Origin: Aphrocallistes beatrix
Taxonomy: Eukaryota; Porifera; Hexactinellida; Sceptrulophora; Aphrocallistidae
Length of the DNA stretch: 64,000 bases
NCBI GenBank assembly: GCA_963281255.1
Contig: OY725503.1
Location: forward strand, 2,790,001-2,854,000
Reading direction: 5' to 3'
Under the pieces are notes generated by a model. The model saw only the letters and a program-made list of their open reading frames with translations, was not told the DNA's origin and ran no database searches. Position numbers and translations under genes: made by a program. Position 1 is the first letter of the stretch. Each line of letters begins with the position of its first letter. This document shows positions 875 through 50,255 of the stretch, piece by piece.

Positions 875-2168
875 CCGTAAACTGGGGCGACTTTGGCCCC
901 AAGAGGTGACTTTGTCCCATAATAGCAATTTTAATAAAATATACTCAAACCATAGCCTACTCTAATAATGCCTCACAGTGAATAACCAAGGATGCGGTAA
1001 TATCCGAATGGATTATTACACGATTAGCCAAAAATAGTTCACCATGTAAGACAGGCATTAAGAATGTATTATCAGCATATATAAACATGGCATCAAAGTA
1101 CATATCTCTGTTGTCAAAATTTCGCTTAGTCATCATATCATTCCTCAACTGGTCATTTTAAGCATGATTTTGGCGATTTTATAATTTGTTTTAAGCCTAC
1201 ATCTAAATATTATTAAGATATAATCTTTGTGTACCAGTAAGATTAGTAGTTGATTTGAAAAATTTAGAATTTATCAATGGAATATTGTTACATTTCTGCG
1301 TTGCTATGGTAAAGCATTTTGATCAGTTTGAGCCATATTCTGCGAACCGTAATAACTAGGTCTTCAAATTTGATCGTAATTGATAGGCAATTGGCTACTT
1401 CCTATTGGGTAATAATACAATTTAAACTTCTAAATTCATAGAGTTATGAGATAATTTAGTGATTTGGTCACATTCTTAAAATCAACCCATAACTCAAAAC
1501 TCGTTGAATTTACAAGTTCAAGTTGTATCACCTAATTGGAAGTAGTTCATTGCCAATCAAACACGATCAAATTTGAAGAACTAGTTACTACAGTTTGCAT
1601 GAAATGGCCCAAACTGACCAAAATGCTTTACCATAGCAACGCAGGAATTTGACAACACTCCATTGAAAAATTCTAATTTTTCAAATCAACTCGTACTAAT
1701 CTTGGTTCTACATAAAAATTACACCTTAATACCATTTAGAAATAGGGTTAAAACAGCTTAGAAAATCGCTAAAATTGTCTTTAGAATGACCTGTTGCGGA
1801 ATAGTATGATGACTAATCGAAATTTTTCCAACGGATATATGTTCTTTGACGCCATGTTTATATATGCTGGTAATACATTCTTAAGCCTATTCTGCGTGGT
1901 TAACGATTTTAGGCTAATCGTGTATTAATCCATTCGGCTACTACTTCATCCCTAGTCCATAATTTTCAATCTACTGTGAGGCATTATTAGAGTAGGCTAT
2001 GCTCAAACTTATGAATCAATGTAATCACTTTGCTAATATGTTGAATGAAACTCTCAATATATCCAAAGGTATTTAAACTGCAGTATTTCTAAGTTGGAGT
2101 ATATTTTATTAAAATAGCTATTGTGGGACAATGTCACCACTTAAGGCCAAAGTCGCCCCAGTTTACGA
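875..2168. mobile_element. TA-flanked MITE interrupted by another element
   Basis: The stretch from CCGTAAACTGGGGCGAC on the left is repeated inverted at about 2096-2168, and roughly 70 bp match from each end. TA is found immediately outside both ends (873-874 and 2169-2170). The interior is filled by the CATAGCC element at 951-2001. The empty MITE would be only about 235 bp. No transposase is present; Tc1/mariner-type by its target. Confidence 0.7.
951..2001. mobile_element. CATAGCC-family foldback transposon, 1051 bp
   Basis: The left end CATAGCCTACTCTAATAATG is matched inverted at the right end, which finishes GGCTATG. The 7-bp sequence CTCAAAC lies directly outside both ends (944-950 and 2002-2008), a clean target duplication. 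Long inner inverted arms (about 1260-1430 against 1500-1690) give the whole element a foldback shape. The short ORFs inside are not convincing genes. It is nested in the TA MITE at 875-2168. Confidence 0.85.
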
Positions 2169-2409
2169 TAACTAAGCCTTAAGATATCGAAAATTGAGTG
2201 AATTGTGAATAATAAAAGTAATTCATATCAATACTACTACAAAGTAAAATCAATCAGTTTATAATGAATAGAGCTTCTTAAAAGTACATTAGGAAGTTAG
2301 AACAAGACTTTACGACTTTTGTTTCCGAGTTAGGATTTTAGAAAATGCTACTTTTTCAAATAGCAATAGATTTAAAACTTAAAGTCTGTTTCATAATTAT
2401 TGGTACTAT

Positions 2410-2714
2410 TTTTAAACGATTTTAGTAGTCGAAGGTGCATTGGGATGGGTAGCTGCTAATTTCCCTCTCAAATTACGAATAGACATCATCGGTGAGCACT
2501 TTAGAGTTGTAATTAAGGATTGTTTCTGCCGAAAGTGATAGTCGAAGGTCGACCTGCTCCCTGTTATGCTCAAGTGACTTGTTCTCGCGAATAAGTTTCA
2601 AAGTGCGAAAAACAGTATTTCTAGGGATGTCTGTTCTTCGGCAAATTTCTACCGGTGATGTTATTTCCGAGTCAAAAGGGTTTTAATAACATCCCTACGA
2701 TCTTTTTGAGTCAT
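2410..2714 (-). pseudogene. Tc1-type transposase N-terminal fragment
   Basis: Reading leftward from an ATG at 2714, the peptide starts MTQKDRRDVIKTLLTRK and stops. The neighbouring frame continues with SPVEICRRTDIPRNTVFRTL, a helix-turn-helix typical of Tc1 transposase N-termini (compare EIAKRCGVSLKTVYNV in the copy at 52.7-53.5 kb). Further frame changes follow, and no catalytic domain remains. A decayed fragment. Confidence 0.6.
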
Positions 2715-2949
2715 TTTAGCTACTAATTCGTTGAAAGAAGTAAGAATTGTTAATTTTTGAACGAAATATAAAATAAAAATAGGCTGTAAAAAGAACACGA
2801 AAAAACGGTAGCCGCCTCTCTCTATTTTGGATGCAAACTCGAAATACGGATAGTTTAGAGGTAATTTGCAGCCTAGTGGGAGAGCATGAAGTAAAATAAC
2901 TTCTTAAACCATTTATGGGTAATTGTAACACTGTTGAAGAAATACATAA

Positions 2950-4451: not shown

Positions 4452-4515
4452 TTAAGTTTTGCTTAACTTCATGCAAAAACTAAGTATTTGCTTAAAGTTA
4501 AGCAAAATACAAGTA

Positions 4516-4685
4516 CAGTGGAATTCGCTTATTTAGTAAATCCCTTATTTGCAATATTGTTCTATTAGCAACCAATCTTCAGGTCCCAGGTGAAGATTGT
4601 GTGTTGTGTTCCCTTATTAGCAACTTCGTGTATTAGGAACAATTTTATGAGCAAAATTCGAGTTGCTAATAAGCGAATTCCACTG
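4516..4685. mobile_element. Short TA-flanked MITE, 170 bp
   Basis: Terminal inverted repeats CAGTGGAATTCGCTTATT, with TA on both sides (4514-4515, 4686-4687). It resembles the pogo/Tc1-type MITEs at 7678-7862 and 19688-19847 in style (CAGTnnnnTTCGCTTATT) but is a separate subfamily. Confidence 0.8.
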
Positions 4686-4969: not shown

Positions 4970-5420
4970 CAAGCGCGCTCCGCTTGCTTGCGCTGCACGG
5001 CTGACGGACACTTTGTGTCCGCCGGAGGCTCCCTTCGGTCGCCTGGAGGTGACATTGGTTAATTATAAGGGATATATCATCTCTAAATATGTCCATCTTA
5101 GTTTTAAAATCGATATCACTCGAAAAAACACCAAATTTGTCAATTTTTAAAATTTTTGATTAGTAATGATGACGTCATAGCAAAGTGATGAGTCATCATT
5201 TTTGATGATAGTTGCATCATATGTGAGACGTGTTAGTATACAGATTCTATTAAAATTTCAGCCTTCAATCTCCTATAATGGCGGAGTTATGCACGAATAA
5301 CTGTGTTGCTTAACTTTTAAAAATGTGACAATGACGTCATAATTCCATGATGAGTCGACATTTTGGTCTGCCATAGCCAAAAGACTCCCACATGCCAAAA
5401 ATCAGCTTTCTACGCCTGGC
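4970..5420 (-). mobile_element. Helitron-like element, truncated copy
   Basis: On the minus strand the 3' end is the hairpin-rich GCGCGCTTG, at 4970. The interior carries the family's paired TGACGTCA sites. The copy is truncated on the right, where its sequence gives way to unrelated DNA near 5420. Non-autonomous; no Rep/helicase ORF. Confidence 0.75.
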
Positions 5421-16674: not shown

Positions 16675-17100
16675 TTTTATGCGAACAAAAAGTTTCTTTA
16701 CAGACCACATAAGGGTGCGCGTTATTGGGAGGTGCCCCATTCAAGGCTCCATTTTCCATCCCAGACAACAATATGTCACAATAGCAATGCACACATAACA
16801 GTAGATATGTAAGCACGATACAACCAAGTGCAATTGGAATTTAGCTTAGTAAGAATTGAGAAATGCAAACACCATCCATAATTGGAAAAATTCTAAAAAT
16901 ATCAACATGTGCATGTACACTGTACATGGCTAACTATATTTAGAATTCTGTCACCACAATACAAGAAACTACGTACATAGTTCTATTATTAGCATGTGAG
17001 GTGGAACAATTATGGGCACTACAACTGTAGTTAATTTTAACGTTGTTACACCAAACCAATATAAGTATGGAAATAATTAATGTCATAACTAATTCAAAAA

Positions 17101-19488
17101 ATGTCTTCTTCAGAACAAGAAACTATTTCTACATTTCGCAGCGCAGATCTCCCGAAGGTTTGCATTCCGGCTGATTTTGAATCTAGCATGGAGTCAAGTG
17201 GGTCTGACAATGAAGGTGATTTCATATTCAAAGTCCCAACAACCCCAACTGATTTAACACCAGCTACATCCACGCCTACTGAGCTCGGATCTACTCTCTC
17301 TCAAGTAGCCCACTCTTCGCAGACATCCGAAGAATCGGATAACACGGCACCAGCTACCCCAGTTCATACCAAAAAGCAGCGAGGACATAAACTCAACACT
17401 GGGAGGTTTCGGAAGGGTGAGGGAGTCAAAAGAAAATCTACTTTCACACCATCTACCACGAAGCGATTACCCCTTCATACTAGCACTCCGAAATCTAAAA
17501 CACTATTACAGCAAGTGAAGTTTCCTCAGCCCAATAAACGCCTCAGTATTATGGTACAGAAGGATGGAGCTCAATCATTTCGTGATCTCTACGTTCCTCA
17601 TGGCTCGCAAATAATTGATATCGATATACTGAGTACGGTATTTTCTCTATTGAGATGCACTGAGGCACACTGCACTGGTAATTTGAATCTGTATCAATAC
17701 GCTTTTCGTGATGGGTTACAATCATATCTCTTGTTGAAATGCAGTCGCTGCCATCTTGTGCTTGCTGAATTTCCCACATCCCGTCCGGTTGGAATGAAAT
17801 CTAATGAAGCCGTGAACGATCCTCAAATGCTTTGCCGGAAAAAGTCGGAAGTCAACGTTAGAGCTTTACTAGCAGCACACTGTACTTCCATGAGCTGGAG
17901 TGATTTTCTACTGACCTGCAATCTCCTTGATATACAAAATACCTGGCATAGAATGTCCAAGTCTCTACTCGCGCAATTGGTCCTTTCTACAGATAAAATA
18001 TGCCAGCAATCCATGTCCATGACAGCAAAAGAAGTGAGAGCCAAAGCTGAGTCATCTAACATTCCTGGTTGCAAGGTATGCGCGGTGAGCTTTGACGGAT
18101 CTTGGCACAGACGCGGACATTTTAGTAATCAAGGATTCGCCGGGGCTATTGAAGTCAAAACGGGGAAAGTCCTTGACTACGTCCTTTACGAACGCGTGTG
18201 TAACAAATGTATCAGATGGACGGAAGAACGTAAGAAAGAAAACCCAGAGGAATACAGCGAATACTGGGAGAAACATTCGAGCGAATGCCCAGCTAACTTC
18301 TCTGGAACAAGTCAGGCGATGGAATCTTCTGCTGCAATAGAAATCTGGGGTAGATCAGTTGACAAGCATTCTCTAGCCTATACTACATATGTGGGAGATG
18401 GGGACTCAAGCTCTTTCAAAAGGTTGGAACAAAATAATCCTTACAAAGGAATGGAAGTTATCCGGAAAGAGGAATGTCTTGGGCACACGCAAAAACGATT
18501 AAAGAAACACCTCAAAAAGAAGACAACTACGAAAACAATGCCCTCCAAGCCAATACCCGCATCAAAAGTCGAGAGAATTGCTCATCTATACGCTCTTGTT
18601 ATTGGCAAGAACAGAGGCAGAACACCACTAGACATTCAAAACGCCCTTTACACACTGATGAATCATTTGTTCGAGGAGCACGATCGTTGCCCACACTCAA
18701 AAGAATCCTGGTGTTACTTTCAAAAGGGCCTCGCAATTTCAGCTGAGAATACCTCTCATCCACCTCCCATACTCCGACAACCCTATCAGAATAAAGACGA
18801 GTATTCGCGCCTGGAAGATGTTTTCAAGAAATTTGCAAGCATTGAAATGTGTTCCGCTCTGACAATGGGATTAACACAGAACTGTAATGAGTCGCTACAT
18901 TCAGTTGTATGGCATAATGCTCCAAAGACAAAACGTGTAGGACAAAAGTCACTTCAAGCCGCTGCTGCTATTGCTGTGTGCACTTTCAATGAAGGTTCAA
19001 TGATGCTCGCAGCTATTCTGTCAGATCAACATGTACAATGTAGCCGTATAACTCTTGAACACTTAGCATCGATGGATAAAGAAAGGAACCGCTGTAAACT
19101 TAAAGCCGTTATGGCTACTCAAAAGAGGCGTCGGAGAGTTCTCAAATCCCAATTCATTGCAGCCGAATCCTCCAGGCGTAGACGTGAAAAGGATACTACG
19201 ACCTATAAATCTGGAGGTTTTGGTACTGAGCTCTCATCTGTTGCCATGAAAGAATTACCTTCCACGAGTGTTAACCCTGATGACTCTGAAACAGTTTGCG
19301 AGGAATGTGAACAACACGACTGCCCAACCGGGGGAAAGAGGGCGAATGATGACTGGTTAGGTTGTGAGTTCTGCCTGAGATGGTTTCACTGTGGATGCGT
19401 CAATACCAGTCTAAAGGACGTGGGAGATGATCCTTATATCTGTAGGAAATGTGACTTGGAATTCGAGTCCTGTGTAGAAGCTGTATAA
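17101..19488 (+). CDS. Mutator-like transposase with C-terminal PHD finger, 795 aa
   Basis: Single uninterrupted ORF from ATG (MSSSEQETISTFRSADLP). Residues 1-150 are low-complexity and Ser/Thr/Lys-rich. The central domain shows the metazoan Mutator-like transposase pattern: CAVSFDGSWHRRG (Asp332), a Cys-rich stretch, YVGDGDSSSF (Asp433/435), HTQKRLKKHLKK, and TQNCNESLHSVVWHNAPK (Glu597). These acidic residues are the likely DDE triad. A Cys4-His-Cys3 PHD finger follows at about 733-783 (CEEC ... GCEFCLRWFHCGC ... CRKC). The family is known as transposases, some possibly domesticated; the intact frame suggests a recent or preserved copy. AATAAA lies 69 bp past the stop. No terminal inverted repeats were identified, so whether it is mobile or a host gene is unresolved. 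Confidence 0.8.
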   Translation: MSSSEQETISTFRSADLPKVCIPADFESSMESSGSDNEGDFIFKVPTTPTDLTPATSTPTELGSTLSQVAHSSQTSEESDNTAPATPVHTKKQRGHKLNTGRFRKGEGVKRKSTFTPSTTKRLPLHTSTPKSKTLLQQVKFPQPNKRLSIMVQKDGAQSFRDLYVPHGSQIIDIDILSTVFSLLRCTEAHCTGNLNLYQYAFRDGLQSYLLLKCSRCHLVLAEFPTSRPVGMKSNEAVNDPQMLCRKKSEVNVRALLAAHCTSMSWSDFLLTCNLLDIQNTWHRMSKSLLAQLVLSTDKICQQSMSMTAKEVRAKAESSNIPGCKVCAVSFDGSWHRRGHFSNQGFAGAIEVKTGKVLDYVLYERVCNKCIRWTEERKKENPEEYSEYWEKHSSECPANFSGTSQAMESSAAIEIWGRSVDKHSLAYTTYVGDGDSSSFKRLEQNNPYKGMEVIRKEECLGHTQKRLKKHLKKKTTTKTMPSKPIPASKVERIAHLYALVIGKNRGRTPLDIQNALYTLMNHLFEEHDRCPHSKESWCYFQKGLAISAENTSHPPPILRQPYQNKDEYSRLEDVFKKFASIEMCSALTMGLTQNCNESLHSVVWHNAPKTKRVGQKSLQAAAAIAVCTFNEGSMMLAAILSDQHVQCSRITLEHLASMDKERNRCKLKAVMATQKRRRRVLKSQFIAAESSRRRREKDTTTYKSGGFGTELSSVAMKELPSTSVNPDDSETVCEECEQHDCPTGGKRANDDWLGCEFCLRWFHCGCVNTSLKDVGDDPYICRKCDLEFESCVEAV

Positions 19489-21141: not shown

Positions 21142-21902
21142 CCCCTCCTCCTCCCCTCTGCCCCCGCCTCTAACGCCCCCGCTTCTGCCCCTGCTTCTAA
21201 CGCCCCCGCTTCTGCCCCTGCTTCTAACGCCCCCGCCTCTGCCCCCGCTTCTAACGCCCCCGCTTTTTCCCCCGCTTCTTCCCCCGCCTCTAACGCCCCC
21301 GCTTCTTCCCCCGCCTCTAACGCCCCCGCTTCTTCCCCGCCTCTAACGCCCCCGCTTCTGTCCCTGCTTCTAACGCCCCCGCCTCTGCCCCCGCCTCTAA
21401 CGCCCCCGCTTCTTCCCCGCCTCTAACGCCCCCGCTTCTTCCCCCGCCTCTAACGCCCCCGCTTCTGCCCCTGCTTCTAACGCCCCCGCCTCTGCCCCCG
21501 CTTCTAACGCCCCCGCTTTTTCCCCCGCTTCTTCCCCCGCCTCTAACGCCCCCGCTTCTGCCCCTGCTTCTAACGTCCCCGCTTCTGCCCCTGCTTCTAA
21601 CGCCCCCGCCTCTGCCCCCGCTTCTAACGCCCCCGCTTTTTCCCCCGCTTCTTCCCCCGCCTCTAACGCCCCCGCTTCTTCCCCCGCCTCTAACGCCCCC
21701 GCTTCTTCCCCGCCTCTAACGCCCCCGCTTCTGTCCCTGCTTCTAACGCCCCCGCCTCTGCCCCCGCTTCTAACGCCCCCGCTTCTTCCCCCGCCTCTAA
21801 CGCCCCCGCTTCTGCCCCCGCCTCTAACGCCCCCGCTTCTGCCCCTGCTTCTAACGCCCCCGCTTCTTCCCCCGCTTCTGCCCCTGCTTCTGCCCCCACC
21901 AC
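21142..21902. repeat. C-rich minisatellite, ~760 bp
   Basis: Tandem array of 15-, 18- and 27-bp mixtures built from GCCCCCGCTTCTAAC and GCCCCTGCTTCTAAC. One strand is almost free of G and very C-rich, unlike the AT-rich surroundings. Higher-order blocks of about 280 bp recur (for example 21250-21420 and 21490-21730). The opposite-strand frame would encode an endless Ala-Gly-Glu-Leu repeat, which I treat as non-coding. The strand asymmetry means the G-rich strand could form quadruplex-like structures. Confidence 0.9.
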
Positions 21903-23734: not shown

Positions 23735-24062
23735 CTAGCACTCCAAAAATCACCAAATTGTTATTTTTGTTTAGTATTGATTACATGATAACAGAGTGAT
23801 GAGTCATCATTTTTTGATGATAGTTATATCGTATTTGAGATATATTTACATACACATTCTATTAAAATTTCAGCTTTCTATCACCTAAATTGCTGAGTTA
23901 TAGTCGAAAAATTGAAATTTCTAATAACACAAAAGGTGGCAATGACGTAATAATTCCATGATGAGTCGATATTTTCGTATCAGGTCAGGAATTAGTGGAG
24001 CCATCCCTAAAATATTCCAACATACCCAAAATCAGTTTTCTCTGCAAGGAAGTTTTTTCAAT
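23735..24062 (-). mobile_element. Helitron-like fragment
   Basis: Family body without its 3' hairpin end. The two CRE positions have decayed (ATTACATGATAAC and AATGACGTAATAATT), but TGAGTCATCATTTTTTGATG is retained. Confidence 0.7.
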
Positions 24063-25425: not shown

Positions 25426-26955
25426 TTAAGTTTTTGCGAATAATTCATTCAACAAACCAAGCTGAGTAACTATACCAACAACATCTCCCTGTGATAGATT
25501 GGGAGAATCGCTAGAAGTAATAATAATATATTGAGTATCGCGCCTCAATCTATACAATATATATTTTAACGAAGTATTCATTATTGCACGGGGAAATTCA
25601 CTATTAGTAAAAAGCGAAACACGATCTTCAATTTTGCGGAAGCCAAGAAACAACTTTGAACAAATACTTTTAGAATCAATGGTACCTAAAATTTCATTAT
25701 TTTCCCTACAAACCACAGCAACTGGAAATTTTTCTAATTTCTTCATTTTTTCTATAGCATCTCTACATGTGAGATTTTGTTTGAAAAATAAAGGCATTTG
25801 AAGAGTAATGTCTCTAAGTGTCATATCTGCAGCAAAATCTGTTAGGCTATCATTATGAAATGGAATAAATTGATTTTCGATCATCCAGTCTTCATTGAGA
25901 TGTTTTGTCATATAGTTACGAATGGAATCAGGTAAAATGACAACACATGTTTGACTAGATTGTAAAGAACTTGATACTCGTAGAGCTGCTACAACTGCAC
26001 TGCCACTAGATCCACCACATAATAATCCCTCTTCCCGAAGGAGTTTTCGTGCCATTAAAAAAGAATCTTTATCATTTACCTTCACCCATTCATCTATAGA
26101 ATTTCTATCTAATACTGTAGGAATAAAATCATATCCAATCCCTTCAACTTTATAACTATGAACCTTATCATTTAAGCTTTCTGGAAGTGCAAGTATACTT
26201 CCAACAGGATCCACACCAATTATTCTACAATGTGGAACTTTTTCTTTAAATTTCCTACTAATCCCAGTTATTGTCCCTCCAGTTCCTACTGAAACTACGA
26301 GAACATCGATCTGCCCGCTACACTGTGTCAATATCTCATCTGCAGTATTATCATAATGTGCAATAGGATTATATGGATTACGATATTGATCCAAGATATG
26401 AGAATGAGGAATTTTACTTTTAAGATCCCAAGCAACTCTAATATGAGACTCGGGACTATCAAAAGCTGCAGAGGTAGGTGTTCTTACTATTTCAGCCCCC
26501 AAACCTCTTAAAATATCCTCCTTTTCAGCACTCATCTTCTCTGGCATCACAATAATACATCTATAACCTTTAATAGAAGCAGCAAGTGCAATCCCTATTC
26601 CAGTATTACCTGAAGTAGGTTCAATTATTGTATCTCCTTCTTTTAAATCGCCTGTTCTCTCTGCCTCTTCGATCATACGCAACCCAATTCTGTCTTTCAC
26701 GGAACCACCAGCATTAAAGAATTCACATTTAGCCAAAAGCTGGCATTTAAGTTTATTAGATTTGGATAATCTATCTAATCTTATCATGGGTGTATCACCA
26801 ATTGCGTTTAATATTGAAGAATATATAGGTTCTTTTTTTGTCAGAAAAGAATAATGATGATGTGGTGATTCAGCAGAACTACTATTCCAAGAACATCTGA
26901 TAGGAATATCAGGGCGAATCCAAAAGGGATTAGAAATCTGATTGCTTTCAGACAT
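25426..26955 (-). CDS. CBS: Cystathionine beta-synthase, 509 aa
   Basis: The PLP enzyme of transsulfuration, condensing homocysteine with serine to cystathionine, also an H2S source. The complete single-exon ORF begins MSESNQISNPFWIRPDIP. An N-terminal heme site is visible: RCSWN (Cys ligand) and SPHHHYSF (His ligand), the animal CBS pattern. The fold II core shows AGGSVKDRIGLRM (PLP Lys), EPTSGNTGIGIALA, SVGTGGTITGISRK (phosphate loop), GVDPVGSILALPE and LLCGGSSGSA. The C-terminal third has the paired CBS (Bateman) domains, residues about 380-505 (MPLFFKQNLTCRDAIEKM ... GDVVGIVTQLGLLNELF), which bind S-adenosylmethionine in vertebrates. Length is close to human CBS (551 aa). No frameshift or missing key residue was seen. 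A splice-acceptor-like sequence immediately precedes the ATG. Confidence 0.95.
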   Translation of the reverse strand: MSESNQISNPFWIRPDIPIRCSWNSSSAESPHHHYSFLTKKEPIYSSILNAIGDTPMIRLDRLSKSNKLKCQLLAKCEFFNAGGSVKDRIGLRMIEEAERTGDLKEGDTIIEPTSGNTGIGIALAASIKGYRCIIVMPEKMSAEKEDILRGLGAEIVRTPTSAAFDSPESHIRVAWDLKSKIPHSHILDQYRNPYNPIAHYDNTADEILTQCSGQIDVLVVSVGTGGTITGISRKFKEKVPHCRIIGVDPVGSILALPESLNDKVHSYKVEGIGYDFIPTVLDRNSIDEWVKVNDKDSFLMARKLLREEGLLCGGSSGSAVVAALRVSSSLQSSQTCVVILPDSIRNYMTKHLNEDWMIENQFIPFHNDSLTDFAADMTLRDITLQMPLFFKQNLTCRDAIEKMKKLEKFPVAVVCRENNEILGTIDSKSICSKLFLGFRKIEDRVSLFTNSEFPRAIMNTSLKYILYRLRRDTQYIIITSSDSPNLSQGDVVGIVTQLGLLNELFAKT

Positions 26956-26985
26956 TCTAAAAATAAAAAATAGAGAAGTAAATAG
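26956..26985 (-). promoter_or_regulatory. Splice-acceptor-like sequence directly before CBS ATG
   Basis: On the minus strand the bases before the start codon read TTCTCTATTTTTTATTTTTAG then A then ATG: a strong polypyrimidine tract ending in AG one base from the start. This fits either a 5'-UTR intron or a trans-splicing site. Confidence 0.5.
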
Positions 26986-27327
26986 TGTATAATAATATCA
27001 AATGAAATATTCCAGGATAATTTATCCTACAGATAGGTACCAATGCTATGCCGAGAAATCTCAGATATTGTTGAAATTTTCATGTGTGAAACTGAAAACA
27101 GTATAACCAAGCAATATGCTTTGCTTCAATATCGTACTTTTTCGGCCGAGTTATCTCAACTACTTACATTTCGGGGATATTAAGTTCAATAATTTAATTA
27201 ACCTCTCTAAATGCGAACTAAGACGAATCTGTTCTAGTCGTGGAGTAGGGGCGAAACAAGAGAGGGAAGGGGGACTGCCGCCCTGGGCAGCAGCTCGAGG
27301 GGACAGCATATTGCATTTACAACTTAA

Positions 27328-31898: not shown

Positions 31899-32092
31899 GT
31901 ATAATCATAGCCTACTACAATAAAGCCTTTTCGCTGAACAATTTTCCATGGTACCAGGGATTAGATAAAGTGGATTTTCTTACACACCCATAATATGAAT
32001 AAATATTTTTTGTTCCAAATCTAATTCATCATTTGTTTGATGCATAACTATATGGAACTAGTCTACGTTCCAATAAATTATATATCAATGTT

Positions 32093-33850
32093 ATGGCTAT
32101 TTTCTTTCTCTGCTATATGGTTCCTTTTTACTTTTACGTTGAAGGATGCAGCAAAGGGGCAATGGGGAGGCGGGATGGACCTACAAGGAAGTATCCGGCA
32201 AGCCAATTCCCTAAGAATGGTCGGTGCTTTATTTGCGACTCGGACAGGCACTTTATGGCCCAATGGCCGGAACGGCACTGTGCGAAATGTGGCGAAAGAG
32301 GACACGAGGTCCGCTATTGCCCACATACACGAAGTCGAAGAGGGGTATTTCAGGTCACGACGCAGCATAGTGTTGTACATGAGACGGCGGTTGTGGTACC
32401 AGTTAAATGGAACGGTTAACCCATCACTGTAATTGTTGCAGTCAAAGTGCGTTTTCAGCCAAAACGCGTTTTGGCTAGTCAGAACGCGTTTGGACTAGAA
32501 AGTCAGTCAAAATGCGTTTTGACTGACTTTCTAGTCCAAACGCGTTCTGACTATCCAAAACGCGTTTTGGCTGAGAACGCACTTTGACTGCAACATAATG
32601 ATGGACACGTGGGCGGATCCTTCGATAGTGGACAGAGGCACCGTACAAAAGATGAATATCCCTTACAGCACAAAGTACAGTCAAGTGTATGGGCTAGGGT
32701 GGACAGCGCTTGCAGTCTGTGGTACGCCCTGCGTGGCGATAGATGTGGGGGATGGCCGACCACTAGAACACGAAATCGAAGTACTAACAATAGGGTGGTT
32801 ATATTAGGGCGAAGGTTCCTCGCGCGCTTCAAGAATACTACTTTCGATTGGAAAAACATGAGTTAGGCTAGGTGGTTGTTGGAAAACCTCTAGCTGCGGC
32901 ACGCGGGGATACGCGGCGACTAGAGCAGAAATTATGCAGACTGAGATGGGAAAGGAGGGAGATAGCTTGGAGGCCAGGTTCGATATTAACCCGAAACTAT
33001 CACCGCGAGAAGAGGCCGCAATACGCAAGGTGCTGTCGAGATGGAAAGACGTTTTCGCGGGGAACCCGAAGAGCGCGCGCGAAATTGGAACCGCGGGACA
33101 CGTTATCACTCTTCTGGTTGAGCGGCCGACTAAAAGCCGACCGTTGCGTGTTTCTCCGGAAATTGAGGCGGAGGTATCCAAGCAGATAGATGAAATGCTC
33201 GAGAATGGGATCATACGTCCCTCTTCTTCCTCTTGGGCGAGTCGAGTGATCTTAGTGAAGAAAAAGGACGGGACCCATCGATTTACCGTAGATTGCCGGG
33301 ATCTCAATGATGTGGCGAAGCGAGATGCCTATCCGATGCCGAATCCCCGAGATGTTTTCGATCGTATGGGAGGGGCAACTGTATTCTCTACACTGGATGG
33401 GGCATCCGCATACTGGAGCGTGCCTGTGAAGGAAAAGCATAGGGAGTTCACTGCGTTTGTTTCAACGCGCGGCCAGTTTGAATTCAACCGCATGCCTTTT
33501 GGATTGTCAAACTCACAGGCTACCTATCAGCGAGCGGTAGACCAGGCTCTACGAGGGTGTCCGAATGTACAGGCATTTGTTGATGACACATGTGTTCACT
33601 CGCCCAGTTTCGATACGCACCTGGAGCATTTGGATGAGGCTCAGTGGCTATTCTAGAAATTGAGGATGAAGAATGTGAGGATTGGGCTTTTGAGTGTACT
33701 GATTGCTGTATTGACGGAAAAGATATGCTACGTTGTATTTTAATGACTTCAAGTAACTGTTTACTCAACAACAAGGCCAAGAATATTACTTCTACCACCT
33801 CTTGTTCCAAAGATACTCAAAGGAAGATACTTAAACTTACCTCTAATTAA
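32093..33850 (+). pseudogene. Ty3/gypsy gag-protease-RT fragment inside a DNA transposon
   Basis: In order: two CCHC zinc knuckles (CFICDSDRHFMAQW, the last Cys changed to Trp in this copy, and CAKCGERGHEVRYC); an aspartic-protease site altered to DTWADPS; then an open RT stretch from about 32934 with INPKLSPREE, RVSPEIEAEVSKQIDEM, VKKKDGTHRFTVDCRDLN and the active-site FVDDTCVHS. RT ends abruptly after HLEHLDEA; the thumb, RNase H and integrase are absent. The downstream frame (33644-33850) gives a short Cys-rich peptide, CEDWAFECTDCCIDGKDML, resembling the last knuckle of a PHD finger. Frames differ between segments, so it cannot make one protein as it stands. Confidence 0.75.
32434..32595. 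mobile_element. 162-bp near-perfect palindrome inserted with TAAT duplication
   Basis: Starts TGTTGCAGTCAAAGTGCG and ends in its inverse; 79-bp arms, 4-nt loop TGCG at 32513-32516. The arms contain internal sub-repeats of AACGCGTT. TAAT flanks both sides (32430-32433, 32596-32599). The homologous site in copy 2 (near 49410) has a single TAAT and no insertion. Confidence 0.9.
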
Positions 33851-34087
33851 TATATGTATATATATATACACCTATATATTTATGTAGTATTCCTTGTCCG
33901 TCAACTAAATTATGCCAGCAGTCAATAATATCATTATTGTGGGGTAGAGGATGTATAATTACACGATAATAAACATATCAAAATGATGTGTTTAATTTCA
34001 TTGTATTAATAACAGGCTATGGTATAATCTATCTAATGAACATACAGAATTTTGAAATTTTGAAAATTGCTAAAAATTCACACTTAA

Positions 34088-40322: not shown

Positions 40323-41265
40323 GGGGCGCCTGCATTAGTTCGAATTTGGACAGTTGGCATTAGTTCGAATTTGGACAGTTGGCATTAGTTCGACAATAAT
40401 TTCAGACAGTTGGCATTAGTTCGACAATAATTTCAGACAGTTGGCATTAGTTCGACAGTAATTTCAGACAGTTGGTATTAGTTCGACAGTAATTTCAGAC
40501 AGTTGGCATTAGTTCGACAGTAATTTCAGACAGTTGGCACTAGTTCGACAGTAATTTCAGACAGTTGGTATTAGTTCGACAGTAATTTCAGACAGTTGGC
40601 ATTAGTTCGACAGTAATTTCAGACAGTTGGCACTAGTTCGACAGTAATTTCAGACAGTTGGCATCAGTTCGACAGTAATTTCAGACAGTTGGCATTAGTT
40701 CGACAATAATTTCAGACAGTTGGCATTAGTTCGACAATAATTTCAGACAGTTGGCATTAGTTCGACAATAATTTCAGACAGTTGGCATTAGTTCGACAAT
40801 AATTTCAGACAGTTGGCATCAGTTCGAATTCTGTATGTAGTCGTTAGTTCTATATGATCAATTCTTGATTTTTGTTCATTGTTATGCTTCTAAACCTCAC
40901 AAAATTAAAATGCCTACTTTCACGGTCAATTTGACATTGTTTCAAACTTAAAATGCCTACTTTCACTTTCTGCGATTATTTGCCAACTGTCTGAAATTAT
41001 TGTCGAACTAATGCCAGCTGTCTGAAATTACTGTCGAACTAATGCCAACTGTCTGAAATTACTGTCGAACTAATGCCAAATGTCTGAAATTACTGTCGAA
41101 TTAATGCCAACTGTCTGAAATTATTGTCGAACTAATGCCAACTGTCTGAAATTACTGTCGAACTAATGCCAACTGTCTGAAATTACTGTCGAACTAATGC
41201 CAACTGTCTGAAAGTATTGTCGAACTAATGCCAACTGTCCAAATTCGAACTAATGCAGCGGCTCC
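40323..41265. mobile_element. Foldback element made of tandem 30/31-bp repeats, 8-bp duplication
   Basis: The left arm has about 16 copies of GGCATTAGTTCGAC...TTTCAGACAGTT. The right arm has about 9 inverted copies (40980-41240). Outer ends GGGGCGCCTGCATTAG and CTAATGCAGCGGCTCC, with the 8-bp duplication ATATTTAT (40315-40322, 41266-41273). It lies just inside a Helitron 5' end (TCCTTACTATGAAAAATCG at 40288). The centre (AAAATGCCTACTTTCAC) resembles 11530-11720. Confidence 0.85.
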
Positions 41266-41282: not shown

Positions 41283-43362
41283 GGGTATTCAATATGTTCC
41301 GGGAATGACTCTGTATATCTAAATGTATTAGAGATAAGCTATATCCATTTAATCCATTGAACTCATTGAAGCCTTGCCTCCAGATTCGCGTATGGATTTG
41401 TTCAGCTCTTGAAAATTTTGCGGTTACCCAACTCCATATATAGACCTCAGTTTTGGGCACTTAAGAAAAATAGATTTTGCTGTTTTGTTAATCAATATCG
41501 CTGTTATCATCAATTCTACAGCAAAATAAATCATCGCAATGAATTTTACATAGAAAATAATATATACAATGATATTTTCAGCGACCTATCTTTTTTACCT
41601 AGCGAAGCAATATCAATTTCTTTAAGACCATGGCCCTATTTGCCACATTTTGAGGGGTGAAAAGTGGTTAAAATCCCATAAGACACTATTCGAATTTGCA
41701 TCATTGGATTCAAATGACTAGTTCCCGTTGGATTAATCCCATCGGTTCTTACATATCTGACTCAAACTTTTATTCTTATATAATTCCTAGAACTAGTATA
41801 TATATATGAAAACATAAATACATTGATTTTCAATTGTAAAACGGGAATTAGCATCAAGTGCGCAAAACTGAGGTCAATAAATAGAGTTGAGTAACAGCAA
41901 AAAATTTCAGAAAAGAATAAGCTATATACGAATCGGGAGGCAAGGCTTCAATGAGTTCAATGGATTAAGGTTGGCCTTTCCTATAATAGCTAACTTTCGA
42001 CTTTTTCAACCGATTCATTTAATTTTTTCAGTGCAGATTTGAATCGCAGACTTATCTGCAAAACTGCATTAATAATTGAAATATTGCAACAGATAAATTT
42101 TTTTCATTAAAAATTTAGTCATTTTACAAGAAAGAAATCGGACACAATATGCTTACAATCCTTTAGAAACTTTTCAAATTCATTCATAAATCGATGATCT
42201 AACTAATGAACAGACAGATTTTTGAAATTTTGAAAATTGTTAAAAATTCACACCAAACACCCGAAGAATTATATTTTTTGTAATTTTGACGCTATATTTT
42301 TCATAATTCTCTTCTTATTCCTAATATAAAAATATGTCTGTTCATTATGTTCTCCTCTTCGAGATCAATCAAAAACCGTTGAGTTTTCGCCCCTATGATG
42401 AATTTACAAAAAGTTATCACCTTTAATAATTGCTGAAAAAAAAGTCTCAGAAAATAGGATATAAAAAATATTTATATAAGTCCCTCGATTTCCATTAGTT
42501 TTACCTGCTTTGGAATATTAAATAACATGCAAATATCCTTATTCGACAACTTATAGCAGTACTTAACTTCAAAATATGGCATATCAAAATTTTTCACAAT
42601 CAAAAGTGTGAAAAACTGGTTATTGATGACTGGCCACCCAAAAATAACCACATTCGATTCTATCCGCCGGAATCCCAGATAAACAACTTCTTTGAACCAT
42701 GTCAGATCATCATTTTAATGCTAAATTCGTGCTTAGCACTAAATTTTTCAGCAATTTGGTATATATATTGACCATATTTGGATAATCTTTTGGATTTCCG
42801 TGCATAGCAACGGCCAGGAATTTTTTCACATTCTTGGCCGTTGCTAGGAATCCGCAGCCAAAGAATTTCTCCAAATGTGTCCAATATATATATCAAATTG
42901 CTGGAAATTTAGTGCTGAGGACGAATTTAGCATTAAAATGGTTATCTGACATGGTTCAAAGAAGTTATGGATATGAGACATTTCGCATCAAAATGTTGTC
43001 TTTTTGGGCGACACCAGGGGGTATAAGGGGCTCTAGGTGGTGGAATATTAGCATTGAAATTCTAAAAATCAAAATTAATGTTTAGAACCCCTTTAGGGAT
43101 CTAAAAATGATTAAAAAGGTCTTTTGGCAAATTTTTGATAAAAAACAAAATGCCCATAGGAAAGTCCAACCTTAACCCGAGCACGTCCAGGAATGTTGAA
43201 TTGAAAGTGAAAGTTAATTGAAAGTAAACTGAAAATGAAAGTGAAAGCTGGGTCATTTCTATTTATACCTTTGACCCCAAGTAATCCTCGGGTTAAGTGG
43301 ATATAGCCTATCTCTATCACATTTAGATACACAGAGTCATTCCTGGAACTTTTTGAATGCCC
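41283..43362. mobile_element. TA-flanked element with ~68-bp terminal repeats, split
   Basis: GGGTATTCAATATGTTCC at the left is matched inverted at the right (CTGGAACTTTTTGAATGCCC), continuing through ATGACTCTGT and TATCTAAATG. TA lies at 41281-41282 and 43363-43364. A TTAA element (41969-43171) is nested inside. Confidence 0.7.
41969..43171. mobile_element. TTAA-target element (GGTTGGCCTTTCC ends), 1203 bp
   Basis: Left GGTTGGCCTTTCCTATAAT, right CCCATAGGAAAGTCCAACC, TTAA outside both (41965-41968, 43172-43175). Includes the hairpin module around GCAACGGCCAGGAATTTTT. No transposase ORF. Confidence 0.75.
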
Positions 43363-43916: not shown

Positions 43917-43939
43917 TTAATCGAGTTTTAATATGAAGG

Positions 43940-45094: not shown

Positions 45095-47085
45095 CAGTGT
45101 TTCCCAACCTTTCCATTTGTAACGCCCCCTAAGGTGCTTGCAACTTTCATAAGGCCCCCCTACTTCATTATGTATTAAATCAGTTTTTAATTAGTGATTA
45201 CGCGTATATGTAATTATAAAAGTTAGAGTATTATGGAATGATAAGACTTTATCAATATGTTTACTAAGATTATAAGTACTAGTACTTGTAGTAATATAAG
45301 TTGAAACATGTGATCCTTGACATTGGTGGCTCTTTGCTAGTTTGATTACATCAGGTTCTAACTGAGTCAGTGAGAGTCGTAAGTCACCCTTTGTGGCTAT
45401 TTCCAGGCGATTTCTTTGTTTTGTGAGGAGATTAATAACTACGCTAAAACCCTTCTCGACAAGATATGATGATGGAAATGCGACAAACATCAGCTTTACT
45501 GCTTGGTATATGTGGGGATAGCGCTCAGATACTTCGTTCTTCATCCGCATTTGGTGAATATGGCTTTACATTCGATATCATTCTGCAAATCGAGGAATTC
45601 TTCTTGCAATTGTGAGTCCAAAGTTTCTACATTAGTTGCAAATGGATTTACAAAATCGGGGATAACTAGTTCTGTCAAATCCTTGAACCGAATCAACATA
45701 TCTTCTCTAAGGGAATCGATATGCGAACAGTAATTGTTAATATTTTCATCTGTAATGGTGATGTTATTTGTCATATCCAGTTCACGCAGACATAGTAAGT
45801 GCCCAAATTCACGACAAGCAATATTCTGTCGGAACAAGGTTAGTTTACTTAGGAAAGATAGAACAATTCCCTTCGCTTGAATAAGGGTAGTATTACTCCC
45901 TTGAATAATACTACCCTTTTTGATCATTATATTAAGTTTCTCGAATATGTCGGCTAAGTAAGCGACATCAATCCTTACCAGTTTAACCTTTTCTGCCAAA
46001 GTTGGATCATGTTCTTCAAAGAATTCGACAATAGAATCAAAAAGTTGATGGAACCGTTTCAAACAATTACCTTTAGAAAGTCACCTAACTTCAGTGTGAA
46101 GAAGGAGGCGTTTGTAATTTTCGTCATTGTTGTCACAAATTTGCTGAAAGATTCGATCATTCAGCGGATTCTTTTTTATTTTATTCGTTGCAGTAATCAC
46201 GATTTGCAAAGACTGGTAAAGATCAACTGTTAGGTGCTTTGCAATCAAATGCTGACGATGTATGACACAATAAATGATAAATATATTAGGTACAGCTCGT
46301 TTTAGATGAGCTATGAATCCACGATGTCATCCAATCATTGAAGGTGCTCCATCAGTAGCGCATGCAACAATATTTCCTAATGGTATGCTCTTCTGTTCAC
46401 AAAATTGCTTAACGACTGCGAATATTGACTCACCCCTTGTATCTGTTTCTAATGGCTTGGAGAAGAGCATTTCTTCCTTAGATACACCGTCACGAATATA
46501 TCGTACATACGCCATAAGCAAAGCTTTGTTACCACGCAAGGTTGACTCACCAAGCTGCAAAGCGAATTCTGTCGTTTGTAGAACTTCACACAATTGTTGT
46601 TCAACATTTAAAGCCATTTCGTCGATCTTCCTTGAAACTGAGTTATTACTTAAGGGAATTGATTTAACTACACTAGATGCATCTTGATGCATGACAGTAG
46701 AAATATCCTCACTTATAGCTGGAAGAATGAGCATTTCGCCAATGGTATGAGGTTTTCCACATTTAGCGATTAAGAGAGAAATATTGTAAGATGCAATAAG
46801 GCCATCCGCATTTTTATTCTGAACTTTGTTAAACATTCCATCAATGGAACTACGTTTTCCAAACTGCTTTTGAACAGCCTGGAAATAATTGAGATCCTTG
46901 TCTTTCTTATCAGGGTGCTTCTTTGTCAAGTGTTCACACATTCGTGAAGGTTTCATAGCTTCATTAGAAAACACTTGATTGCAGAGTAAACAAAAGGGTA
47001 ACTGTTGATTAGTAGGTGAAGGGATGAACCCAGATTTCAAGTAATCTATGGAGTATTGGCGGAATTTTTTCTTGTTCTTTTCACT
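45095..47085 (-). pseudogene. hAT transposase pseudogene (ZBED5/FAM200/SCAND3-like)
   Basis: The left end CAGTGTTTCCCAACC is a hAT terminus. The minus-strand frame from 47040 begins with a C2H2/BED-like finger (FCLLCNQVFSNEAMKPSRMC ... HLTKKHP), then SLLIAKCGKPHTIGEMLILP, SRKIDEMALNVEQQL, and the catalytic-region VACATDGAPSMIG. It continues with RGFIAHLKRAVPN, FIIYCVIHRQHLIAKHL, a long helical part, and the C-terminal PSSYLVEKGFSVV dimerisation motif to 45191. Interruptions: TGA after PSMIG (about 46327, an Arg codon in relatives), TGA at the Trp of VRxLSKGN (about 46080), and a frameshift near 45545. The right terminus was not found; a LINE tail abuts. Confidence 0.8.
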
Positions 47086-47088
47086 TTA

Positions 47089-47398
47089 GCTGCGCCTGTT
47101 GAGTGGAATCTTCTGCCTCCGAGCATTCGGAATGCCCCCTCACTTCTTCTCTTCAAAAAACTCTTGAAAACTCATCTTTTCCGTATCGCGCACGACACAT
47201 CCACTTAAATTAATTTCAATGCATATACATACCTTACAAGCATACATACACAAACATACGCATACATACACATACATACGCATACATACACATACATACA
47301 TAACACACACCTACTTTTATTGAATTGTACAGCGCACTTGAACATATTAATATGGAATCTGCGCTATATAAATGTATATTATTATTATTATTATTAAA
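47089..47398 (+). mobile_element. 5'-truncated L2/CR1-like LINE 3' end
   Basis: An open piece reads AAPVEWNLLPPSIRNAPSLL then FKKLLKTHLFRIAHDTST and stops at 47206-47208. This is the typical last 40 residues of CR1/L2-clade polymerases (..WN.LP..IR.A.S...FK..LKT.LF). The 3' UTR has a CATA microsatellite, GCGCTATATAAATG, and ends in (ATT)n, the tail style of L2-like elements. Confidence 0.75.
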
Positions 47399-47559
47399 TC
47401 TTTGACAAAAACCAAAATGCCCCTAGGAAAGAACAGCCTTAATAGGAGGTAGTCTCTTTGCTATCAAATGGAATTACATATGAATGTATGGCTCTTGCGG
47501 TTTTTATAATATGACCCCAACTGATAAAAACACGTCTCCATAGCAATACTGCAATGTAG

Positions 47560-47887
47560 CAACATTCCATGAAAAAATTCCAAATTTTTCGTATTAACCC
47601 ATTTACACCACAGTTTTATGCGAAAAAATGTATAATAAAAACACTTAGAAGTGCAAATCAATAAATTTGTCACAAATATAACTATTGCGCAACCATATGG
47701 TAACTAATCTAAATTTTAACAACGGATATGGGTACTTTGACACCATATTTAAATATTCTGGTAAAACATTTCCATTGTGCTTTGTTAATGATTTAAGGCA
47801 GCCCGTGTATTATTTCAACCATCTTCTACCGCATGCCTAGTCCCTAATCCGCAAGTTACTGTGAGGCCGTATATACAGTAGGCTATG
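47560..47887. mobile_element. Right part of a CATAGCC-family element
   Basis: Matches 1690-2001 (CAACGGATATG, TTTGACACCATATTTA, GTTACTGTGAGGC) and ends ACAGTAGGCTATG at 47887. The left half is missing. Confidence 0.65.
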
Positions 47888-48029
47888 GTCTGTCATACTG
47901 TTATAATCGATATCACTCGAAAAATCATTAAATTTGTCAATTTTTAAATTTTTTTGATGCGTAATGATGACGTCATAACAGAGTGATTAGTCATCATTTT
48001 CATATTTGGGAAATATTCATATACACATT

Positions 48030-49988
48030 CATAGCCTACTACATACAGGCCGTTTCACTACTTTAGACCAGGGATAAGATAAAGTCGAGTTTTTAATACA
48101 ATTAAATTTAACACAATATCATTTTGATATATTTAATATCGTGTAATTATACATCCTCTACCCCACAATAATGATATTACTGACTGCTGGCATAATTTAG
48201 TTGACGGACAAGGAATACTACATAAATATATAGGTGTATATATATATACATATATTAATTAGAGGTAAGTTTAAGTATCTTCCTTTGAGTATCTTTCCGT
48301 CAATACAGCAATTAGTACACTCAAAAGCCCAATCCTCACATTCTTCATCCTCAATTTTTAGAATAGCCACTGAGCCTCATCCAAATGCTCCAGGTGCGTA
48401 TCGAAACTGGGCGAGTGGACACATGTGTCATCAACAAACGCCTGTACATTTGGACACCCTCGTAGAGCCTGGTCTACCGCTCGCTGATAGGTAGCCTGTG
48501 AGTTTGACAATCCAAAAGGCATGCGGTTGAATTCAAACTGGCCGCGAGTTGAAACAAACGCAGTGAACTCCCTATGCTTTTCCTTCACAGGAATGCCCCA
48601 TCCAGTGTAGAGAATACAGTTGCCCCTCCCATACGATCGAAAACATCTCGGGTATCCGGCATCGGATAGGCATCTCGCTTCGTCACATCGTTGAGATCCC
48701 GGAAATCTACGGCAAATCGATGGGTCCCGTCCTTTTTCTTCACTAAGATCACTCGACTCGCCCAAGAGGAAGAAGAGGGACGTATGATCCCATTCTCGAG
48801 CATTTCATCTATCTGCTTGGATACCTCCACCTCAATTTCCGGAGAAACACGCAACGGCCGGCTTCTGATCGGCCGCTCATCCAGAAGAGTGATAACGTGT
48901 CCCGCGGTTCCAATTTCGCGCGGGTTCTTCGGGTTCTCCGCGAAAACGTCTTTCCATCTCGACAGCACCTTGTGTATGGCTGTCTCTTCTCGCGGTGATA
49001 GTTTCGGGTTAATATCGAACCTGGCCTCCAAGCTATCTCCCTCCTTTCCCATCTCAGTCTGCATAATTTCTGCTCTAGTCGCCGCGTATCCCCGCGTGCC
49101 GCAGCTAAAGAGGTTTTCCAACAACCACCTAGCCTAACTCTCATGTTTTCCCAATCGAAAGTAGTATTCTTGAAGCGCGCGAGGAACCTTCGCCCCAATA
49201 TAACCACCCTATTGTTAGTATCGAGTATTTCGATTTCGTATTCTAGTGGTCGACCATCCCCCACATCCATCGCCACGCAGGCCGTACCACAGACCGCAAG
49301 CGCTGTCCGCCCTAGCCCATACACTTGACTGTACTTTGTGCTGTAAGGAATATTCATCTTTTGTACGGTGCCTCTGTCCACCTCCGAAGGATCCGCCCCC
49401 GTGTCCATCATTACATTGATGGGTTTGCCGTTCCATTTAACTGGTACCACAACCGCCGTCTCATGTACAACACTATGCTGCGTCGTGGCCAGAAATACCC
49501 CTCTTCGACTTCGTGTATGTAGGCAATAGCGGACCTCGTGTCCTCTTTCGCCACATTTCGCACAGTGCCGTTCCGGGCATTGGGCCATAAAGTGCCTGTT
49601 CGAGTCGCAAATAAAGCACCGACCCTTCTTAGGGAATTGGCTTGCCGGATACTTCCTTGTAGGTCCATCCCGCCTCCCTATTGCCCTTTGCTGCGTGGCG
49701 CATCCTTACATGTATAGAAACAGTTGAGAGCTAACATTCAAGAACAAATACAACGTAAAAGTAAAAAGGAACCATATAACAGAGAAAGAAAATAGCCATA
49801 ACATTGATATTAATTTATTGGAACGTAGACTAGTTTCATATACTGATGCATCAAACAAATGATGAATTAGCAGATTTGGAACAAAAATTATTTATTCATA
49901 TTATGGGTGCGTAAGAAAATCCACTTTATCTTATCCCTGGTACCATGGAAAATTGTTCAGTGAAACGGCCTGTATGTAGTAGGCTATG
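48030..49988 (-). mobile_element. CATAGCC-family element carrying a gypsy fragment, copy 2
   Basis: Both terminal repeats are intact: CATAGCCTACTACATACAGG and its inverse, continuing through CCGTTTCACT and GGGATAAGATAAAGT. The 7-bp duplication ACACATT is perfect (48023-48029, 49989-49995). It is inserted in a Helitron-like body (47888-48029, resuming at 49989), whose uninterrupted form reads ATACACATTCTATTAAAA. Homologous to copy 1 over its length. Confidence 0.9.
48358..49668 (-). pseudogene. Ty3/gypsy gag-protease-RT fragment, copy 2
   Basis: Same segment as copy 1. The second zinc knuckle CAKCGERGHEVRYC is intact, the first reads CFICDSNRHFMAQC, and the protease site NVMMDTGADPSEV is intact. 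RT keeps VKKKDGTHRFAVDFRDLN and the active-site FVDDTCVHS. A frameshift lies near 49100 between the protease and RT frames, and a 17-bp deletion relative to copy 1 near 48595 interrupts RT. RT ends at the same position as in copy 1 (HLEHLDEA), followed by the same Cys-rich tail, so the truncated segment was already fixed before the copies separated. Confidence 0.75.
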
Positions 49989-50047
49989 ACACATTATATT
50001 AAAATTTCACCCTCTAATCACCTAAAATGGCTGAGCTATAGTTATAC

Positions 50048-50090
50048 CATAGCCTACTGTATATATATACAGTATATACAGTAGGCTATG
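50048..50090. mobile_element. 43-bp CATAGCC element consisting only of termini
   Basis: CATAGCCTACTGTATA, then ATATACAG, then TATACAGTAGGCTATG; flanked by the 7-bp duplication GTTATAC (50041-50047, 50091-50097). Confidence 0.85.
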
Positions 50091-50255
50091 GTTATACTTA
50101 TGCATCCTAATATTAAAAATATAGATGTACGGATACTTCAACAAAAATAACTAAAATGAGAACTACAATTAGTGTCTCTCATAAATTGCTGTATAGTATA
50201 CAATCAGTAACTATGGTTGCAGTTTAGAAAAATCCTATAAAGTATTTATGAACTA

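Follow-up and report, generated by a model that had tools for sequence, protein, structure and literature searches.

The CATAGCC-ended repeats in a 64,000-nt stretch of the Aphrocallistes beatrix genome (GCA_963281255.1, OY725503.1, positions 2,790,001-2,854,000 of the forward strand; hereafter, the window) very probably represent a large cut-and-paste transposon family within the P superfamily and, judging by the target duplication and the target motif, one of the 7-bp type to which 1360 and Galileo belong; the same reading encompasses an excision scar and two elements that are P/retrotransposon chimeras (Table 1). The initial annotation described a DNA-transposon family with four copies, each flanked by a strict 7-bp duplication, and, on re-examination of the window, the coordinates, termini and perfect duplications of all four CATAGCC...GGCTATG pairs are exact. 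Three of these are elements (A, B and C), whereas the fourth (D) is most likely a scar rather than a copy. Among the 20 CATAGCC...GGCTATG pairs in the window with a spacing of 20-12,000 bp, identical adjacent 7-mers are found in exactly four, namely A, B, C and D, and identical adjacent 5-, 6-, 8- or 9-mers in none.

Table 1. Features of the window related to the CATAGCC family (window coordinates).
Feature	Position	Strand	Details
Element A, non-autonomous foldback, 1,051 bp	951..2001	.	duplication CTCAAAC at 944-950 and 2002-2008
Element B, P-derived chimera, 2,116 bp	31906..34021	+	duplication GTATAAT at 31899-31905 and 34022-34028
B: near-perfect palindrome, 162 bp	32434..32595	.	arms 79 nt, 97% complementary
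B: Ty3/gypsy-like RT fragment, 264-aa open stretch	32862..33656	+	RVT_1 5.9e-20
B: P transposase C-terminus remnant, 70 aa	33638..33850	+	tblastn, genome search
Diverged A-related relic	47441..47887	-	66-73% identity to parts of A
Element C, P-derived chimera, 1,959 bp	48030..49988	-	duplication ACACATT at 48023-48029 and 49989-49995
C: CCHC knuckles, aspartic protease and RT fragment	48358..49705	-	PF13650 5.1e-7, PF13975 7.8e-7, RVT_1 3.9e-9
Site D, probable excision footprint, 43 bp	50048..50090	.	duplication GTTATAC at 50041-50047 and 50091-50097
P-transposase C-terminal relic, 67 aa	62971..63171	-	51% identity to intact transposase

The 11-base tip CATAGCCTACT occurs 2,838 times in the genome (1,437 + 1,401), compared to 8 + 8 occurrences of the same pattern read backwards; another candidate terminus, CATAGCCCAT, was a wrong guess and was dropped. 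Tabulation of duplication lengths, which the initial annotation had proposed, supports the family: in the collected loci and the window together, flanking repeats are exact and precisely 7 bp long in 17 of the 19 filtered end pairs, and the remaining two have 6 of 7 identical flanking bases. Because the filter (longest exact flanking repeat of at least 5, or at least 6 of 7 bases identical) omits duplication-free pairs, this proportion speaks for the length of the duplication and not for how often it is present. Copies that lack the duplication, which had been named as potential evidence against the family, do exist as a minority, accounting for five of 34 short sites (3-4 of 7 bases matching) and two of the 13 B/C-type copies examined (2 of 7; another three have no scorable end pair). 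The commonest bases over 37 target sites are G-T-T-N-A-A-C, and 7 of 50 joined flanks match ungapped across the junction elsewhere in the collected sequence, as expected of empty sites. The duplication length itself is less unusual than was claimed: 1360 and Galileo, both of the P superfamily, already have 7-bp duplications, so that the CATAGCC family belongs to a known kind.

The superfamily had been left open, with P-like elements and Dada as candidates; the P assignment is now the one that holds. Three elements in the same genome that are flanked by 7-bp duplications encode THAP-domain P transposases. Two of these (L040 and L094; 3,637 and 3,572 bp) have CATAGCCTACT ends and perfect duplications, and the third (contig C15; 3,591 bp) has CATGGCC-type ends, CATGGCCTACT, and encodes a 958-aa transposase in an uninterrupted frame. 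The N-terminal THAP zinc finger (PF05485) is detected in the 958-aa protein (6.3e-14), in L040 (2.3e-12) and in another locus, L092 (3.1e-9), and the TNP-like RNaseH_N domain (PF21787) in the 958-aa protein (1.3e-13). Residues D368/D450/E704 of the latter align with D230/D303/E531 of the Drosophila P transposase (6p5a), described as its catalytic triad (PMC7776569). The GTP-binding insertion domain (PF21788) gives a weak match in L092 alone (E 0.0033, 18.2 bits versus a cut-off of 24.8), and the Pfam scan reported no match to it in the 958-aa protein; a phmmer search at E 0.01 retrieved no solved structure for the C-terminal frame of L040 alone. The terminal inverted repeats (TIRs) begin with CAT (CATAGCC or CATGGCC), as is typical of the P superfamily, and the 7-bp duplication of the C15 element, L094 and the filtered pairs is within the superfamily range of 7 or 8. 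Several other loci were not counted as proof or were rejected as autonomous copies: L093 combines a 926-aa frame with CATAG-type ends spaced 3,605 bp, yet its flanks match at only 4 of 7 bases, L092 (986-aa frame) has no recognisable ends, and the longest frames of L052 (5,830 bp) and L042 (2,731 bp), both with 7-bp duplications, are 109 and 71 aa, respectively, at the cut-offs used. The window was said to contain no transposase, which is correct for a complete one but not for C-terminal remnants of P transposases, found in the stand-alone relic and in the 3' coding part of B.

Element A has TIRs that are perfect over 29 bp, is about 80% self-complementary along its whole length and yielded no long frame in a frame search. 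The A-related relic carries a CATAGCCTACT end at 47887 on the minus strand, without a partner end.

Elements B and C belong to the same family, as indicated by their alignment, and by all sequence indications are P elements whose interior is replaced by a Ty3/gypsy-like CCHC-protease-RT fragment. Residues 897-958 of the intact transposase match the remnant in B (tblastn, E 2e-6), and in some copies of this type the retrotransposon fragment continues in the same reading frame into the final ~70 P-transposase residues; the DTGA and FVDD motifs are kept in the chimeric frame. The coding region of C is split into three overlapping frames. The right terminal repeat of B is mostly lost, with the outermost CATAGCCT as the sole remainder, and its palindrome, which C lacks and which falls in a gap of the alignment of the two, is a later insertion. 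An empty site of C, with one copy of the 7-mer, is present at 23832-23904 of the window. These are not Ty3/gypsy retrotransposons as such: the four frames scanned contain only protease and partial RT domains, the retrotransposon-aligned part breaks off within RT, at L044 residue 452, and the elements are bounded by TIRs with 7-bp duplications as opposed to the LTRs of a Ty3/gypsy retrotransposon. No direct P parent was found among the matches listed, where the closest tail outside the cargo family is a fragment with 61% identity, and no direct retrotransposon donor among the best 145 of 722 candidates, which reach about 59-61% in RT. The retrotransposon piece was probably taken up when the gap left by an excision was repaired.

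Site D consists of 18 nt of tip, the 7-nt filler TATACAG and another 18 nt of tip. A genome scan delineates a separate class of such sites: 34 are 24-43 bp long, none of 44-52 bp was found although these lengths are within the scan range, and a single site, of 82 bp, falls between 53 and 82 bp. The duplicated bases agree at 6 or all 7 positions in 28 of the 34 sites, 20 of which have perfect duplications, and one further site has a perfect 8-bp duplication. The tips retained are 12-20 nt long in 65 of 68 cases and 21-24 nt in the other three, the last bases being blurred by AT-rich palindromes. The length distribution is consistent with cleavage about 17-18 nt in from either end, and the inner strand may be cut there, as in flies, where the junctions of excised P elements are reported to retain as much as 17 nt of either tip along with microhomology or filler (PMC2895639).

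Four alternative readings deserve consideration. It is extremely unlikely that the CATAGCC ends come from a different superfamily, be it Dada or an undescribed one, and enclose P transposases by coincidence. The elements of the window indeed lack a full transposase and a 7-bp duplication is not diagnostic, but the same ends delimit elements that encode P transposases and have duplications of their own. In addition, B and C include a transposase tail of the P type, and the family shares its target motif with 1360. Interpretation of D and the other 24-43-bp sites as ultra-short MITEs that arose by internal deletion and transposed as such is unlikely as well, even if both tips and usually the 7-bp duplication are present and two of the sequences are each found at two places with unlike flanks (L062/L088, 30 bp; L070/L073, 32 bp). 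These identical pairs are palindromes, which joining at microhomology would produce again and again, and the other interiors are mostly site-specific, tracking different end subtypes. Free deletion would stop neither the tips near 17-20 nt nor the lengths at 43 bp, with one site beyond this up to 82 bp; furthermore, the excision junctions of the fly P element look alike.

The other two readings concern the chimeric frame. That it is a maintained functional gene rather than passenger sequence seems quite improbable, despite its continuation into the P tail, the retained protease and RT motifs, and six matches that reach cargo-level identity and have open frames of 515-524 aa (among the best 145 of 722 candidates). 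Across 15 B/C-family copies, the summed pN/pS is 0.61, with dN about equal to dS in many pairs, and only five copies have a frame of more than 500 aa. In six of the 15 (L104, L105, L106, L107, L109 and C), the open stretch begins at one shared break, an indication that amplification started from a broken copy. The amplification of B and C shows little sign of selection. A very improbable extension is that B and C constitute a new hybrid mobile element, in which the body of the P transposase was swapped for CCHC-protease-RT in frame with the tail and the fusion protein of intact-frame copies has a role, for example, in regulating or targeting P transposition.

Under the preferred scenario, a THAP-domain, RNase-H-fold transposase supplied by autonomous relatives of ~3.6 kb would bind the common ends, cut one strand at the edge of the element and its partner about 17-18 nt further in, and integrate it at a weakly palindromic site (GTTNAAC flanked by A/T-rich sequence) whose two strands are cleaved 7 bp apart. 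The P transposases would thereby mobilise the non-autonomous CATAGCC copies in trans, including the foldback element A as well as B and C, which would be deleted P elements with a retrotransposon gag-pol fragment in place of the interior; D would be what end joining left behind when an element was excised.

Drosophila 1360 (Hoppel) has the same 7-bp duplication and GTTNAAC target (PMC3276498) but resides in another genome and has another terminal sequence; the likeness drawn here is one of duplication and motif. Drosophila Galileo, as described in PMC4168063, shares 7-bp duplications (in most copies), a THAP transposase, foldback-like copies and, in some copies, fragments of other transposons; its target in D. 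willistoni is, however, GTATTAC, and the inserts named are other DNA elements, in contrast to the sponge case, where a gag-pol segment is joined to the transposase frame. The Drosophila P element is similar in transposase domains, triad and the build of excision junctions but has 8-bp duplications and the terminus CATGATGAAATAACATA, which begins with CATGATG. Zebrafish Pdre2/THAP9 is reported to combine a THAP transposase with a terminus starting with CATA (CATACCTGTCAAC; CATACCTG) but differs by its 8-bp duplications and 13-bp terminal repeats (PMC10983969). The P-MITEs of Anopheles gambiae resemble B and C in having P ends around an amplified, P-unrelated interior but have 8-bp duplications, and the relevant passages of their description mention no retrotransposon cargo (PMC1562414). 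A literature search covering titles, abstract openings and passages turned up neither a precedent for a P/retrotransposon fusion nor, for any organism other than flies, a survey of P-element scars across a genome.

Altogether, these findings settle the superfamily as P, with 7-bp, GTTNAAC-type insertion and a very high copy number in this sponge genome. In the P/retrotransposon chimera, a coding piece of one transposon class is clearly carried by another. The 34 short sites constitute a natural excision record that allows the cutting geometry of a P transposase to be estimated without bench work; if the cut at ~17-18 nt is confirmed, the unusual long stagger of the fly P element would extend to a relative whose duplication has another length.

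The CATAGCC...GGCTATG-ended family is, judging from sequence, a member of the P superfamily because elements with such ends, or in one case (C15) CATGGCC ends, encode THAP and RNaseH_N transposases, the C15 protein having triad residues aligned on those of the solved Drosophila P transposase (6p5a). The genome (100.5 Mb, 28 contigs, window included) was searched, and the recovery of elements with P transposases settled the superfamily, which the initial annotation had left to a search for an autonomous copy. L040, an element in one of 20 fetched stretches, encodes on the minus strand a first frame in which THAP (2.3e-12) is joined by weak matches, under the cut-off, to P-element HTH and RNaseH_N; a second, overlapping frame contains the remainder of RNaseH_N (3.7e-6). 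When this second frame served as genome query, at least 93 matches were obtained (77 of 1,076 candidates scored). Four regions containing long frames (L092, L093, L094 and a locus on contig C15) were then retrieved, two of them with extended flanks. L093, with ends present but flanking bases matching at only 4 of 7 positions, and L092, with no recognisable ends, were rejected as clean elements. In the domain scan, the 958-aa C15 protein matches THAP (6.3e-14) and TNP-like RNaseH_N (1.3e-13); its residues 307-726 match 6p5a (E 5.5e-5), and D368, D450 and E704 align on D230, D303 and E531 (chain positions counted by hand in the printed alignment), given as the catalytic triad in the account of PMC7776569.

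All four end pairs with perfect 7-bp duplications initially reported in the window, namely the non-autonomous foldback element A, the P-derived chimeras B and C and the 43-bp site D, proved exact. Among 20 CATAGCC/GGCTATG pairs 20-12,000 bp apart in the window, these alone are flanked by identical adjacent 7-mers, and none by identical adjacent 5-, 6-, 8- or 9-mers. Genome-wide, CATAGCCTACT occurs 2,838 times on both strands versus 16 for the reversed-pattern control; among the first 100 matches listed, at least 12 plus/minus pairs are spaced 1,042-1,083 bp apart, close to the size of A, and are candidate A-type copies. When duplication lengths were tabulated for fetched loci and the window, 17 of the 19 end pairs that passed the duplication filter (pairs without any duplication fall outside this count) had exactly 7 bp and two had 6 of 7. 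Copies without the 7-bp duplication do exist, but as a minority (5 of 34 short sites with 3-4 of 7; 2 of 13 B/C-type copies with 2 of 7), whereas the majority keep it.

The suggestion that this length is uncommon, with some P-like elements near it, holds in part: P elements of fly (PMC7776569), Anopheles (PMC1562414) and zebrafish (PMC10983969) are described as making 8 bp, in contrast to 7 bp here, whereas 7 bp is reported for 1360, at GTTNAAC (PMC3276498), and for most copies of Galileo (PMC4168063). Like the 1360 target, the commonest bases over 37 sites with exact 7-bp repeats are G-T-T-N-A-A-C, each weak (39-55%), within A/T-rich flanks; 19 of the 37 are short sites, and the sample includes the related flanks L077/L078 as well as L020 and L094, which lie in copies of a single repeat. 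Because both orientations were counted, symmetry is built into the profile; in a separate test of palindromy, each site agreed with its own reverse complement at a mean of 9.8 of 26 informative positions, versus 7.9 (maximum 9.4) in 1,000 shuffles.

Insertion with duplication of one 7-mer is further supported by putative empty sites. Seven of 50 joined flanks with a single 7-mer (C, L044, L048, L020, L067, L084 and L088; fetched loci and window) match elsewhere, gap-free near and across the junction, with 3 to 7 of 7 bases of the 7-mer agreeing among the matches printed: 7/7 for C (window 23832-23904) and 5/7 for the sole match of L048. B has a gapped match only (window 41999-42253, 88.8%). 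A dispersed repeat at 5372, 36030, 36561, 39949 and 50377 (minus) opens with CATAGCC by chance (CATAGCCAAAAG...) and has no relation to the transposon ends; its relatives host some insertions and are thus the source of the empty sites.

Only three of the four reported copies stand as such: D is most probably the scar of an excision, closed by end joining. With the most frequent end type as reference (GTATATAAGGCCT, found at 8 of the 52 distinct ends), it consists of an 18-nt tip, TATACAG and another 18-nt tip, the tips being readable as 20 and 19 nt against rarer types. A genome scan with CATAGCCTACTN{0,30}AGTAGGCTATG, which admits 22-52 bp, found 34 sites, all of 24-43 bp, and a control found 0; the next size class (53-82 bp) is represented by a single 82-bp hairpin, whose arms are much longer. 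Duplications at the short sites are perfect 7-bp in 20 and 6 of 7 in eight. L086 (G000:C17:1071249-1071362) is the lone short site flanked by a perfect 8-bp repeat, possibly arisen by chance in AT-rich flanks. L076, L077 and L078, near-identical in scars and flanks and on one contig, may represent one event, probably one scar spread by local duplication. Scored against the 52 ends, tip length falls between 12 and 20 nt in 65 of 68 cases (the others 21, 23 and 24); since an AT-rich palindrome can by chance lengthen a tip to 19-20 nt, the limit agrees with a cut at 17-18 nt without fixing its position. The fly enzyme is described as cutting 17 nt inside the element (PMC7776569), and the reported fly P excision junctions have the same build: an 8-bp duplication is followed by at most 17 nt of tip (CATGATGAAATAACATA), then by microhomology or filler and the mirror image (PMC2895639).

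The window contains several other coding features (see the table), among them a 1,009-aa frame resembling an innate-immunity protein. By eye, the long frame at 25426-26997 (minus) resembles a cystathionine beta-synthase and those at 45191-47085 (minus) a hAT-type transposase; two of the three frames at 45-47 kb gave no match in the Pfam scan.

Features of the window and of related loci in the same genome
Feature	Location	Strand	Details
L040 element		- (transposase)	3,637 bp; ~130-bp terminal repeats 89% alike; duplication GTTGATT
L094 element			3,572 bp; CATAGCC ends; duplication GATGGAC; longest frame 720 aa
C15 element			3,591 bp; ends CATGGCCTACT; duplication CCCGAAG; uninterrupted 958-aa transposase
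L076-L078, near-identical short sites	G000:C9:4207590-4207703, 4334804-4334917, 4395300-4395413
P-transposase relic	62971-63171		tblastn with intact transposase
Mutator-like transposase frame	17089-19488	+	uninterrupted, 799 aa; PF20700 6e-52
Intronless frame	53844-56873	+	1,009 aa; LRR matches; NACHT 8e-6, just under Pfam cut-off
Tc1/mariner-like transposase fragment	52698-53465	-	HTH_Tnp_Tc3_2 1.6e-16; DDE_3
Retroelement integrase core fragment	59850-60260	-	rve 4e-7, just under Pfam cut-off
Two 31-bp tandem-repeat arrays	40349-40827, 40981-41239	opposite	15.6 and 8.4 copies
Coding-like GC-rich tandem array	21157-21897	open on both	periods 12, 27, 54 bp

B and C, 87-96% identical in pieces and richer in GC (0.45-0.46) than their surroundings (~0.33), encode in their interior CCHC knuckles (identified by eye), an aspartic protease (PF13650, 5.1e-7 in C) and a partial RT (PF00078, 5.9e-20 in B). 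Residues 897-958 of the intact transposase match the 3' coding end of B (tblastn, E 2e-6); the window, initially described as lacking any transposase, thus retains C-terminal relics, in B and in the tabulated segment, but no complete P transposase. Five loci (L044, L099, L100, L101 and L102) carry a single 516-524-aa frame of knuckles, protease and RT followed by a P tail; in L101 the final residues deviate, as if after a frame shift. The tail of L044, starting at about residue 454, is 43% identical to L093 over 70 aa (E 1.5e-12), and L111 contains a retrotransposon frame colinear with L044 residues 14-452 at 53% identity. With a P tail and a retrotransposon-colinear body in one frame, B/C-type copies are P elements whose middle was exchanged for a gag-pol piece. 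The family numbers at least about 40 copies since 40 of 145 candidates were scored in the DNA search with C (at least 138 matching pieces). Thirteen copies (12 newly fetched and L044) include eight with a perfect 7-bp duplication and three without a scorable end pair. Among 15 copies including B and C, a frame above 500 aa is present in five and absent from ten; pN/pS is 0.61 overall, 0.58 in the five long-frame copies and 0.69 in nine others, and dN is close to dS in many pairs. The retrotransposon-derived coding piece is likelier a passenger sequence, and would have been captured by template switching while an excision gap was repaired.
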